Assembly: GCA_026002975.1 (NCBI GenBank)
Contig: BPGJ01000011.1
Span: 23,813-87,812 of the forward strand
Source: Acidimicrobiia bacterium
GTDB taxonomy: Bacteria > Actinomycetota > Acidimicrobiia > Spongiisociales > ZC4RG35
Length of the DNA: 64,000 nucleotides
Direction: 5' to 3'
In this document: positions 44,238 through 48,307 of the stretch, piece by piece
How positions within the stretch are numbered: position 1 is the stretch's first letter
Layout: every line of letters starts with the position of its first letter
The notes under the pieces: generated by a model
Told to the model about the DNA's origin: nothing
Seen by the model: the letters and a program-made list of their open reading frames with translations, nothing else
Databases searched by the model: none
Made by a program: the position numbers and the translations under genes

Positions 44238-45062
44238 ATGGAGAACCTGGTCACCGGCTTGATCGACCCGTGGCGGGCGGAAGCCCTGGCCGCGACCCTC
44301 GACCGGCCGCCGCCCACAGAGGTCCTCCCTCCGCTCTGGCACTGGATCTACCTCTTGGAGGCCTTCCCCACCTCGAACCTGGGACCCGAGGGTCATCCTC
44401 GCCCTCCCGACCTGCCCATACCCGAAGGACGCAGGATGATCGCCGGTGGCGAGGTGGCCTTCCACGGACACGTCCCGTTGGGTGAGGAGGCGACTCGACG
44501 GAGCCGTCTGCTGGGCGTGGAGGAGAAGGAAGGCCGCTCCGGACGCCTGACCTTCGTCCGGCTGGGACATCGCACCGAAGCCCGAGCAACGCTGCTGGTC
44601 GAAGAGGAGCAGCGGATCGTGTACCTGTCTGCGCCTCCCCGGCCCGACCTCCCCCAGGGCTCCCCTCCCGACTGGCCTTGGCGACGAGTCTTCGTGCCCG
44701 ACGAGCTGGTCCTGTTCCGTTTCTCGGCCCTGACCTTCAACTCCCATCGGATCCACTACGACCGCCGCTACACGACCGAGGTGGAGGGCCATCCAGATCT
44801 GGTGGTCCACGGGCCGCTGATCGCCCTGCTGCTGGCCGACCTGGCCCATGAGCGAGTTGGCGAATTGGTCCACTTCTCGTTCCGGGCCACGGCGCCCCTG
44901 TATGTGAACCGACCGATCACCCTCGTCGGGCGACCAACCGGTGGAGACGGAGCCGAGCTCGAGGCCTGGTCCGACGACGGACGCCGGGCCATGGTCGCCC
45001 TGGCGAGGTTCAACCCGCGGCGCGCACCCTCGAAGCGAGGTAGCCGGCCAGGTGCCGGGTGA
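44238..45062 (+). CDS. Hotdog-fold acyl-CoA hydratase (mesaconyl/itaconyl-C4-CoA hydratase-like)
   Basis: MaoC-like FRFSALTFNSHRIHYDRRYTTEVEGHPDLVVHGPLIALLLADL. Confidence 0.78.
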   Translation: MENLVTGLIDPWRAEALAATLDRPPPTEVLPPLWHWIYLLEAFPTSNLGPEGHPRPPDLPIPEGRRMIAGGEVAFHGHVPLGEEATRRSRLLGVEEKEGRSGRLTFVRLGHRTEARATLLVEEEQRIVYLSAPPRPDLPQGSPPDWPWRRVFVPDELVLFRFSALTFNSHRIHYDRRYTTEVEGHPDLVVHGPLIALLLADLAHERVGELVHFSFRATAPLYVNRPITLVGRPTGGDGAELEAWSDDGRRAMVALARFNPRRAPSKRGSRPGAG

Positions 45063-46254
45063 TGTCTCGGGCGTCGTCCTCGGCTCCGAAGATGAAGCTC
45101 GACTTCCTTCGCCTCAAGAAGGTGAGCCCGATCCGATACAGGCCCGGCGACTCGGTCACCACCCCCCCTTCGTGTTTGAGCTGACCCTTCCTGTCGAAAA
45201 CCGGTATGTGGAGCCATGAGTGGTCGGGAACGAAACCGGTCGCCCAGATCACCGTCCGCACCTCACCGACCCGAAGCGACAGCGGAGGATCGGGATCGAC
45301 CCGGGTGGGTGGGAAACGGTGGGGAGGTTCCACCTCGTCCTCCAGGCCCCTCTCGACGATCCACTCGTCGATCTGGTCGAGGAGCCGCCCCATCTTCAGG
45401 TCGGCGAGCTTCACCTTGTTGGGGAGCGAGCCGGAGAACTGCAGCTCCCTTCCCGAGATCCCGGCCAGACGACCCACCAGGCGAACCCCCATGTCGGTGA
45501 GGGCGTTCAGATCGAAGATGTCCCTCTCCCGCGACCCCACCAGCTGGGGTGAGGGAACCCGCCTGGCTCTGACTATGTCGTCCACCTCGTCGTACCGTTC
45601 GTCGGCCCGCCCGGTTTTCTCCATCCACCATTGGATGTCCCGACCCCGGTAGGTCCTGGGCATCCGCACGTGCTCGCCGACCGACAAGGTGACGGGACGT
45701 CCCGATCGGTGGATCTCGGCCGCGATCTGGATCCCGGTGGCAGACGCACCCACCACCAGCACCCCGCCTTCGGGTAGGAGATCCGGCCCTCGGTATTCGA
45801 GGGGGGTCAGCGTCGTGACGTCGGTGGGTAGCGCCGAGGCGATCTCGGGGACCTTGGGGAGGTTGAACCCGCCCGAGGCGATCACCACCGTTTCGGCCCA
45901 CCAAACCCCGTTGTCGGTCTCCACCCGATACCCGTCGCCGCTACGGGTGACCGAGGTGACCGTGGTGTGGGTGACCAGCGGGGGGTCCACGAACCTCGCG
46001 TAGTCCTCGATGAAGCGGACCACCTCGTCGACGGTCATGAACCCATCCGGGTCATCGCCTCGGTAGGCGAAGCCGGGCAGCCGGCTCTGCCAGTTGGGGG
46101 TGAGCAGCCGCAGCGAATCCCACCGCTCGGTCCGCCACGTGTTGGCCACCTCTCCCCGTTCGATCACCACGTGATCGATCGACAGTTCGGTGAGGCAGCG
46201 GCTCACCGCCAGGCCGGCGTGCCCGGCCCCCACCACCACGGTCGTGGTTCTCAC
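45010..46254 (-). CDS. NAD(P)/FAD-dependent flavoprotein monooxygenase (CzcO/FMO-like)
   Basis: TTTVVVGAGHAGLAVSRCLTELSIDHVVIERGEVANTWRTERWDSLRLLTPNW; GVLVVGASATGIQIAAEIHRSG. Confidence 0.85.
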   Translation of the reverse strand: MRTTTVVVGAGHAGLAVSRCLTELSIDHVVIERGEVANTWRTERWDSLRLLTPNWQSRLPGFAYRGDDPDGFMTVDEVVRFIEDYARFVDPPLVTHTTVTSVTRSGDGYRVETDNGVWWAETVVIASGGFNLPKVPEIASALPTDVTTLTPLEYRGPDLLPEGGVLVVGASATGIQIAAEIHRSGRPVTLSVGEHVRMPRTYRGRDIQWWMEKTGRADERYDEVDDIVRARRVPSPQLVGSRERDIFDLNALTDMGVRLVGRLAGISGRELQFSGSLPNKVKLADLKMGRLLDQIDEWIVERGLEDEVEPPHRFPPTRVDPDPPLSLRVGEVRTVIWATGFVPDHSWLHIPVFDRKGQLKHEGGVVTESPGLYRIGLTFLRRRKSSFIFGAEDDARDITRHLAGYLASRVRAAG

Positions 46255-46823
46255 CGGTCGGCGGGTGTGACCTCGACGGTGACCTGGGTCGGGTTGGTGA
46301 TGATGTCGAACACCGCCGACCGCTTCTGGGATTGAGCCACGAGGGCCTCGATCTCCTCAGGGGTCGCGTCGGCGTCGATCTCGTACTTGACCCGGATCCG
46401 GTTGAACCCGTTACGCACGTCGGGATCGGCACCCAGGATGCCGAGGATGTTCATGTCGCCCTCGAGGGTCGCCTTGACCGACCGGAGTTGGATCTCCCGG
46501 TTCTGCGCGACCGCGGCGATGCCGGCGGTGAGGCAGCTGGCGAGACCGACCAGCACTATCTCGACCGGGGTGGCGCCCTGATCCTCGGCGGCGAACACCT
46601 CGGGGTGGTCGGCTTCGAAGGTGAAGGTCCTGCGGTGCCGGTGCTCCTCTCCGAGGCCGAAGTAACTCTCCACCACCGAGCGGCTGTGGGTGCCGTTGAT
46701 CCATTCGTTGGTGGCCCGCCAGGTGAACTGGGCGGCTTCCGGCGCGTCCGACAGGGCGGCGCGGGCTTCGAGCAGGGCCTGCACGTTGACACCGTTGTCG
46801 ACTGGGGTTCCTGTGATCGTCAT
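46251..46823 (-). CDS. OsmC-family protein
   Basis: PVEIVLVGLASCLTAGIAAVAQNREIQLRSVKATLEGDMNILGILG. Confidence 0.85.
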   Translation of the reverse strand: MTITGTPVDNGVNVQALLEARAALSDAPEAAQFTWRATNEWINGTHSRSVVESYFGLGEEHRHRRTFTFEADHPEVFAAEDQGATPVEIVLVGLASCLTAGIAAVAQNREIQLRSVKATLEGDMNILGILGADPDVRNGFNRIRVKYEIDADATPEEIEALVAQSQKRSAVFDIITNPTQVTVEVTPADR

Positions 46824-46871
46824 GTTTCCTCCTGCTGACAGAAGTGACCGGACGCGGACGCCTGCGGTGTT

Positions 46872-46918
46872 GCTCTCGGGTGGTGGCGTCCGCTAGGCGG
46901 AGTCGACCACCCGAGAGC
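46872..46918 (-). promoter_or_regulatory. Leader stem-loop (13-bp perfect stem) overlapping the 3' end of the upstream ORF
   Basis: GCTCTCGGGTGGT ... ACCACCCGAGAGC. Confidence 0.75.
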
Positions 46919-46976
46919 CGGCACAGCACATCCGGCTTGGGGTGGTCGTAGGAAGGATCATCGATGTACGGCTCAT
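46893..46976 (-). CDS. Putative 27-aa leader peptide (uORF) MSRTSMILPTTTPSRMCCAGSRVVDSA
   Basis: ATG with gaggag SD, tandem Cys codons directly before the hairpin arm. Confidence 0.5.
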   Translation of the reverse strand: MSRTSMILPTTTPSRMCCAGSRVVDSA

Positions 46977-47042
46977 AGGGCTCCTCTCGCTTCTCGTCTA
47001 CGCGCTCTTCGAGCGCCGCGAGCGGATCCCCGCCGTCGGCGA

Positions 47043-47123
47043 CTCATCGATCAGGCTTTGGCACCGTGCTTCGGCCGGTTGCCGTGGCTTCACAGGGCCT
47101 GTCCCTCCACCACTCTTGATGAG
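47043..47123 (-). ncRNA. SAM riboswitch aptamer (SAM-I/SAM-IV clan)
   Basis: CTCATCAAGAGTGGTGGAGGGACAGGCCCTGTGAAGCCACGGCAACCGGCCGAAGCACGGTGCCAAAGCCTGATCGATGAG; P1 CTCATC/GATGAG, P2 GTGG/CCAC, P3 ACCG/CGGT, conserved core. Confidence 0.93.
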
Positions 47124-47137
47124 CGCGTTGGCCGGGA

Positions 47138-47218: not shown

Positions 47219-48307
47219 ATGAGCGACGAACGAAAGGAACAGGACGCTCCTCTCGAAGACGACGAGGAGACCCGCGACCTCGAGCGAGACGAGCGCACCG
47301 AAGAGCGACAGCAGCGACGGGCCACCAACTGGTGGCAGCGGCGACGGGTCGAGCCGGAGGAGCGGGATCGGGTCCTGGGTGAGTTGTTCCAGGAGGGGGA
47401 CCGCCGGGTCCCCTACCTGTATCGGTTGGCGTTCCTCCAGTCGATGTCGGTGGTGGTGGCGGTGGTGGGGATGATGGCCGACTCGCCCGCCCTTGTGATA
47501 GGAGCCATGCTCCTGGCCCCGCTCATGTCCCCGGTGCTGGCGGTCGCCGCCGCCCTGGTGATGGTGTGGCCCAAACGCCTCGCCTTCTCCGCAGGGCTGG
47601 TCGCTCTGGCCAGTCTCGGGTCGGCGGGGCTGGCGTGGGCCATCGCCGTTCTGCTCCCCGACCTGATCGCCGGACCGCTACCCCACGAGCTCACATCCCG
47701 CACCAGTCCGAACCTGCTGGATCTGGTGGTGGCTCTGGCCGCCGGAGCGGCGGGCGGATACTCGATGGTCCGGGAGGAGGTCGGTCGGGCCTTGCCCGGG
47801 GTGGCGGTGGCGGTGGCGTTGGTTCCACCACTGGCCGCGGTGGGCCTCGCCCTCTCCCTCGGAGAGGCCGGTTTGGCGGTCGGCGCGGGGCTGTTGTACG
47901 TCACCAACCTGGCGGCCATAGTCCTGGCGGCCGGGGTCGTGTTCCTCGCCACGGGTTTCATTCCCACCGTCAGGGTGTCCCGCCTGTCGTGGCAGGTGGG
48001 GCTGGCGTTGGCTGCGGCTCTGGTGCCGGTCGCCCTGGTGGCGGTTCCCCTCACCCGGACCCTCCAGGACTCGTTGGCGGAAGCGTCGACCCTTCGGGAG
48101 GTGGGGCGGGTCGTGCCGGCGTGGCTGGCGGGCGAGCCCTTCGATCTGGTCGAGGTGCGGGTCGCACCCGACCAGGTGGTGGTGGTCCTGGCCGGTGACG
48201 GCACTCCCCCTCCGGCATCCGAGCTGGCCGCGCTCCTACCCGATCCCCCACCCGAAGCGATCCGGGTCGACGTCATCCAGAGAACCACCGACGTGTTCTA
48301 CCCCTGA
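47219..48307 (+). CDS. DUF389/TIGR00341-family membrane protein
   Basis: MSVVVAVVGMMADSPALVIGAMLLAPLMSPVLAVAAALVM. Confidence 0.85.
   Translation: MSDERKEQDAPLEDDEETRDLERDERTEERQQRRATNWWQRRRVEPEERDRVLGELFQEGDRRVPYLYRLAFLQSMSVVVAVVGMMADSPALVIGAMLLAPLMSPVLAVAAALVMVWPKRLAFSAGLVALASLGSAGLAWAIAVLLPDLIAGPLPHELTSRTSPNLLDLVVALAAGAAGGYSMVREEVGRALPGVAVAVALVPPLAAVGLALSLGEAGLAVGAGLLYVTNLAAIVLAAGVVFLATGFIPTVRVSRLSWQVGLALAAALVPVALVAVPLTRTLQDSLAEASTLREVGRVVPAWLAGEPFDLVEVRVAPDQVVVVLAGDGTPPPASELAALLPDPPPEAIRVDVIQRTTDVFYP

Follow-up and report, generated by a model that had tools for sequence, protein, structure and literature searches.

A SAM-I riboswitch and a cysteine leader peptide that may act in series upstream of osmC in Acidimicrobiia

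Why would the leader of a single OsmC-family gene carry both a SAM aptamer and a short reading frame with tandem Cys codons, and how would the two signals be combined? The leader lies in a stretch of 64,000 nucleotides of contig BPGJ01000011.1 (the window, meaning the whole of the DNA analysed) from an Acidimicrobiia genome that is 84.6% complete. On the minus strand, the parts follow one another in the order SAM-I aptamer, upstream open reading frame (uORF) with tandem Cys codons, 13-bp hairpin and osmC. The aptamer (SAM-I or S-box riboswitch, 47041..47125, minus strand) matches Rfam RF00162 with 71.3 bits (E 1e-15), well above the gathering cut-off of 44.4, and is a member of the SAM-I family. 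The uORF (46893..46976, minus strand) runs over 27 codons from ATG to TAG (stop at 46895-46893) and would encode the leader peptide MSRTSMILPTTTPSRMCCAGSRVVDSA. Its Shine-Dalgarno (SD) sequence, AGAGGAG, is placed four bases 5' of the ATG, and its two Cys codons lie in tandem at 46928-46926 and 46925-46923. Closely downstream, the codons G-S-R-V-V form arm A (GCTCTCGGGTGGT, 46906..46918), which pairs perfectly over 13 bp with arm B (ACCACCCGAGAGC, 46872..46884). An earlier note on this DNA had claimed a uORF with a good SD between aptamer and osmC, and a perfect hairpin with the post-Cys codons as its left arm and its right arm past the stop; both are borne out (46976-46893 for the uORF; 46918-46906/46884-46872 for the arms).

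A second complementarity extends beyond that hairpin. Arm D (GCGGACGCC, 46885..46893), which takes in the final base of the uORF stop and extends to arm B, forms a perfect 9-bp helix with arm C (GGCGTCCGC, 46854..46862), located 9 nt past arm B. The osmC leader as a whole folds more stably than 100 of 100 dinucleotide shuffles (z = -3.6). The putative regulated target is the OsmC-family gene (46251..46823, minus strand; Pfam OsmC 4.9e-18), whose stop is overlapped by a gene for a FAD-dependent oxidoreductase (45010..46254, minus strand; Pfam Pyr_redox_3), probably its operon partner; the nearest NCBIfam entry for the latter is the MSMEG_0569 family, with a score below the cut-off. A gene for a DUF389 membrane protein (47219-48307, plus strand) lies upstream of the SAM leader and is divergent from it.

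Is the arrangement found elsewhere? Used as the sole query among relatives, the 27-aa peptide matches only the window, being too variable for such a search, so that synteny and a covariance model were required to find its relatives. The osmC orthologues of relatives were collected and their leaders compared, and a covariance model built from the Cys codons and the hairpin was run on 296 genomes of the class. The model matched 48 of these, and the window's genome itself contains three strong copies. The strong matches are confined to the window's order, which also accounts for nearly all of the matching genomes; two matches in other families are weak (E about 0.005) and probably due to chance. 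The Cys-codon/hairpin element is present in about 70 copies in this order within Acidimicrobiia, in four or more families, where it precedes genes for OsmC, sulfate assimilation and MetY/MetZ as well as further sulfur genes; the nearest named relatives that carry it are metagenome-assembled Acidimicrobiia. Fragments and probable chance matches (L161, L179-L184) were excluded from the statistics. Among 4227 Rfam models, none besides SAM matches the leaders, and the Cys element therefore corresponds to no family known there.

Palindromes picked up by a genome-wide pattern scan in Corynebacterium, Frankia, Microvirga and others were rejected as unrelated, with no in-frame Cys leader before a fitting hairpin. 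The dispersed palindromic repeat of Candidatus Corynebacterium faecigallinarum (CTCACTCCCGCTCCCGGGTGG...CCACCCGGGAGCGGGAGTGAG), present in many copies, shares only the hairpin sequence (L201, L204, L205, L209, L220, L230, L239). A fold common to all Actinobacteria was also considered and dropped, since rhodanese genes outside the class carry a different Cys peptide with another geometry. At these loci (L300-L309; same phylum, other class), the rhodanese (CysA2/SseA-like) genes stand behind a conserved leader peptide, RTR..GLVGAMIPSRLCC, which has tandem Cys near its stop and is found without the A/B/D/C fold.

The short ORFs of the relatives have quite different N-termini and a common tail, CxxSRV, which ends just before the second hairpin arm (for example MCCPGSRV, MCVCPGSRV, MGCLGSRV and MCAMACLRSRV). 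Over the eight codons that precede the Arg of SRV, the mean number of Cys codons in the peptide frame is 2.1 and that of Met codons 1.0 (58 rows), compared with 0.4-1.1 and 0.1-0.3, respectively, in the other frames; the script mis-framed about 8 of the 58 rows, so that these counts are conservative and the true contrast between frames is larger. The residue four codons before the Arg is Cys in 39 of 58 rows and Met in 12 more, and Cys and Met alternate in many leaders (e.g., MCMCMPCSRV). A hairpin that is kept while the uORF or its Cys codons are lost, which the earlier note had regarded as evidence against its reading, is not the pattern observed: in-frame Cys is present in all but two non-redundant elements, and clustered, conserved Cys codons in a short ORF are what is found upstream of these sulfur genes. 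Both exceptions (L139/L291 in genome G034; L142 in G167), two species of a single genus, encode MAMMPSSRV, with Met codons in the place of Cys; they keep the SAM aptamer, the hairpin, the D:C helix and OsmC. It is possible that the sensed amino acid has changed in this genus and, given the Met codons in leaders, sensing of Met may occur as well. From the SD and the conservation of the frame we infer that the uORF is translated. Two further variants deserve mention. In the second SAM- and Cys-containing leader of the window's genome (L001), there is a single Cys codon and no stop before arm B, and the frame reaches the start of osmC. In genome G013 (L065, L244), the SAM aptamer, an RHRCC motif and a hairpin at the Cys codons are retained, and the A/B/D/C fold is absent.

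The comparison of leaders across relatives, which had been proposed as a check, reveals covariation in both hairpin arms alongside the conserved Cys codons. In shuffles that ignore the kinship of the sequences, helix A:B has 15 compensatory cells vs. 5.7 expected (0 of 500 shuffles as high), with every slid version of the pairing far worse, and helix D:C, likewise conserved with compensatory changes, has 49 (37 distinct pairs) vs. 26.9 ± 4.6 (0 of 500). GGCG served as the anchor for arm C independently of D, which leaves the outer D:C pairs unbiased. An independent test of D:C gives a contiguous-pairing total of 112, compared with 70 ± 6 in 2000 permutations, the maximum of which was 93. Some members of family f6, with longer spacers and a gene that lies further downstream, have a weak D:C helix or none. 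With the arms in the order A-D-B-C, the two helices cross, each with its own covariation support, as in an H-type pseudoknot; there is no linker between D and B, and B and C are often separated by 8-9 nt. A:B and D:C may form such a pseudoknot or, equally, may be mutually exclusive, competing pairs.

How are these arms positioned with respect to a translating ribosome? In the 53 elements with an assigned main gene, the position of the last Cys codon relative to arm A ranges from an overlap of 3 nt to a gap of 10 nt, mostly no further away than 8 nt and usually no more than 5 nt. In 51 of 52 elements, the stop codon begins 8-17 nt upstream of arm B (mode 10-12; 11 nt at the window locus). Between arm A and the stop there are anywhere from 10 to 44 nt; the constant spacing between stop and arm B despite this variation indicates that the stop keeps a fixed position relative to D and B. 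Ribosomes have footprints of known general size, and on that basis stalling at the Cys codons would place a ribosome over arm A, and one at the stop would cover arm D; the placement of Cys codons and stop is, by this estimate, the layout of a ribosome-position switch. Since arm A adjoins the Cys codons and A:B covaries, the structure is one that a Cys-stalled ribosome could disrupt.

The reading preferred here, with a probability of roughly two in three, is a two-input leader in series, in which SAM would gate translation of the leader peptide, the peptide would control the A:B/D:C element, and osmC would be ON if both signals are low. The parts, their conservation, their covariation, the ribosome geometry and the set-wide aim of the SAM platform (see below) are observations that form the basis of this model. 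Two inputs, SAM and cysteine, had been suggested before; the comparison supports them well, and the refinement is that they would be placed one after the other. The SAM-I aptamer would control the start of ribosomes on the next ORF, as at the met genes of the same bacteria, except that the regulated frame here would be a short leader peptide instead of an enzyme gene. At low SAM, the leader would be translated. A shortage of Cys-tRNA (perhaps also of Met-tRNA) would make the ribosome stall on the Cys codons and cover arm A; A:B would then be blocked, only D:C could form, and the operon would be ON. At low SAM with enough Cys, the ribosome would reach the stop beside D and leave the RNA there, which would allow A:B to form, alone or together with D:C as the full pseudoknot, giving the OFF state. 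At high SAM, the leader would not be translated and A:B (with D:C) would form, again OFF. The A:B-containing state is taken as OFF from the expected direction of the sulfur-gene response. OsmC and its oxidoreductase would be expressed only with SAM and cysteine both low.

By which step would the OFF state act? At the window locus, no intrinsic terminator of the trp/his type was found, and a U-tract after arm C is scarce across the set, with a mean of 2.0 T in 8 nt and five or more in 3 of 39 elements. One alternative is an attenuator at the level of translation, of the mycobacterial poly-Cys kind, in which the structure formed without stalling sequesters the ribosome-binding site (RBS) and hides the SD of osmC. 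It differs from the series model in the output step only, and the identical logic with similar targets (cysteine genes) that is described for mycobacteria, according to PMC9094748, PMC9031893 and PMC13236596, argues in its favor. However, in a set of 39 elements the four arms pair with the RBS region of the downstream gene no better than shuffles do, and masking of the Cys codons, which mimics stalling, shifts the exposure of the SD only from 0.40 to 0.43, a thermodynamic prediction only. RBS sequestration is thus unlikely, if still a serious contender. A weak preference goes to termination by Rho within a C-rich stretch upstream of the gene: between arm C and the SD, C exceeds G in 36 of 39 elements (a count without a control set for comparison), and a C-rich stretch in this position fits Rho loading.

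Does SAM act on the uORF, or on the leader as a whole? A SAM-I survey of 61 genomes (the window's and 60 relatives) gave 91 hits, 89 of them above the Rfam cut-off. A Cys uORF (once a Met uORF) stands behind about 30 of the 91, in four families, and every SAM-linked OsmC gene has a Cys/Met uORF between aptamer and gene. Counted from the aptamer, the uORF starts at +61..+77 in most cases and at +11/+14 in four, with the main gene at +162..+364. Met-type genes that follow the aptamer directly (metH, metX, metY and others, named from sequence starts and not all profile-tested) start mostly at +51..+89, and at +11/+12 in one genus. Pairing of the switch platform with the SD exceeds that of shuffles both for uORFs (mean excess -2.7 kcal/mol; p<=0.05 in 7 of 28) and for directly following genes (mean excess -2.3 kcal/mol; 8 of 29 with p<=0.05), and shows no excess for the SD of the downstream gene (mean +0.24 kcal/mol; 1 of 25 with p<=0.05). 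Since the platform thus matches the SD of whichever ORF comes first, and not that of the downstream gene, the SAM switch seems to be aimed at the uORF. In the minimum-energy fold of the window locus, the candidate anti-SD (46981..47031, minus strand) pairs GGGGATCCGCTCGC (47031-47018) with the uORF SD GCGAGAGGAG (46990-46981); this locus alone gives p=0.10, the signal being one of the whole set. A possible switching helix, P0 (47000..47128, minus strand), is an inverted repeat made of ACGCGCTC (47128-47121, the 5' side of P1) and GAGCGCGT (47007-47000), and excludes both P1 and a local hairpin, GCGCTC/GAGCGC (47016-47011/47007-47002). Helices of the P0 type recur at many SAM loci of the order (p=0.020 at the window locus), and a P1-exclusive helix, in which the 5' strand of P1 pairs with a GAGCGCGT-like stretch further on, is enriched in the uORF and direct-gene groups. 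The aptamer appears to act on the uORF's own translation, which would place the inputs in series and not side by side.

Alternatively, the inputs could be parallel, with the aptamer acting on transcription of the whole leader or on RNA stability and the Cys attenuator working independently. Many loci have a Cys element and no SAM aptamer, which makes the Cys module self-sufficient, and SAM aptamers also occur alone. Yet no terminator was found between aptamer and uORF at the window locus, the uORF starts at the position of a regulated ORF, and it is the uORF whose SD the platform matches across the set; parallel inputs are improbable. A second type of uORF, of 14-18 codons (e.g., MTKSDPCCIQCPEKR, MSKADTPICGSEPAERRP), was also observed behind SAM-I. 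Here the aptamer precedes metH in several relatives (L259, L260, L267, L272, L274, L276, L282), with this different short ORF at +57..+64 and the metH start at about +98..+115.

Could the peptide matter as such, by acting in trans or as a nascent-chain arrest peptide, with the amino acids of the CxxSRV tail as the active part? The near invariance of the SRV residues would agree with this, but these residues are encoded by arm A, which covaries with arm B, while the remaining peptide and the number and spacing of the Cys residues vary. RNA pairing explains the conservation of SRV, and a function of the peptide itself is very improbable. Many short ORFs arise in GC-rich sequence, but a fortuitous ORF over a strong hairpin beside a SAM riboswitch is refuted by the recurrence, frame, geometry and covariation seen across dozens of relatives.

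Cys leader peptides were predicted by Seliverstov et al., 2005 (PMC1262725) and are established for mycobacterial poly-Cys ORFs (Canestrari et al., 2020, as cited by PMC9094748, PMC9031893 and PMC13236596). By these accounts, both share with the present element the Cys codons, an upstream short ORF, sulfur-assimilation operons, an actinobacterial host and the lack of an intrinsic terminator. The mycobacterial ORFs are described there as leaderless, whereas the uORF here has AGAGGAG before its ATG and a SAM-I aptamer upstream. Unlike these systems, the present element has a covarying A:B/D:C fold and a fixed stop position, and RBS sequestration was not found; no conserved hairpins are reported for the mycobacterial Cys leaders in Seliverstov et al. 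(PMC1262725). The uORFC-8-2 motif before cysS of Rhodobacterales (PMC8632094) likewise combines a uORF with tandem Cys codons and an adjoining stem, but it ends in an intrinsic terminator with a U-run, has no riboswitch, and belongs to another clade and target. The LEU element before actinobacterial leuA (PMC1262725) also joins a leader peptide with regulatory codons to a conserved pseudoknot of unknown mechanism, but with Leu codons and no aptamer.

Two-input leaders are known too. Tandems of SAM-I and T box(Met), among other two-input tandems, place SAM-I and a sensor of amino-acid starvation in one leader as a logic gate (PMC9481103). Here, a translating ribosome would take the place of the tRNA-binding RNA as second sensor, which appears to be under the control of the first. 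At ubiGmccBA of Clostridium acetobutylicum (PMC2940859), cysteine and SAM/methionine signals also meet at one sulfur locus, through a Cys T-box and an S-box-controlled antisense RNA, in contrast to the single sense leader with a leader peptide found here. The SAM-II riboswitch of Sinorhizobium metA (PMC9373788) controls an SD with an effect at a distant start codon, but differs in its aptamer class, its terminator and its lack of amino-acid-sensing codons. A literature search that included few subscription papers yielded no report of a SAM riboswitch gating a Cys leader peptide or of an A:B/D:C pseudoknot, and nothing for Acidimicrobi* together with leader peptide and riboswitch. The SAM-I switch and the Cys leader peptide are each already known; it is for their arrangement in series and for the pseudoknot that no report was found. 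The earlier note had called the combination of SAM aptamer and Cys leader unusual, which holds for the literature that could be searched and fails within the order, where the combination is common.

The complete model, which would make this a new class of leader, namely a riboswitch that gates an amino-acid-sensing leader peptide, a ribosome whose position at a Cys codon or at the stop picks between crossing pseudoknot helices, control of the gene by this pseudoknot with neither terminator nor RBS sequestration, and a NOR-type SAM/cysteine gate over the Cys-to-Met branch of the order, is more tentative and falls somewhat short of an even chance. If true, riboswitch and ribosome-mediated attenuation would be joined in series, and any reading of the sensor peptide would depend on the riboswitch.

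How are the leaders distributed over sulfur metabolism? In the window's genome, SAM-only leaders precede metH and a metX-like gene, and a Cys-only leader (peptide ...SCCCGCCVRSRVG...) precedes a cluster for rhodanese, sulfite reductase, sirohaem synthase, PAPS reductase and uroporphyrinogen methylase. The second SAM- and Cys-containing leader precedes another OsmC gene and O-succinylhomoserine sulfhydrylase. In one stretch (L185, G000:C2:140000-149600), the sulfate-reduction cluster (Cys only), OsmC2-metZ (SAM and Cys) and metH (SAM only) adjoin one another. The pattern in this one genome is orderly, with Cys alone at sulfate reduction, SAM alone at Met synthesis and both at the junction, and the distribution of the leaders links OsmC-family proteins concretely to sulfur amino-acid metabolism. 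Elsewhere, the Cys element also precedes genes for rhodaneses, MetY-type enzymes, an NMT1-type substrate-binding protein and DUF4395 proteins. The DUF4395 membrane proteins stand behind Cys leaders at five loci (L172, L173, L174, L177, L178; Pfam assignment confirmed for L172), which hints at a role of DUF4395 in sulfur metabolism.
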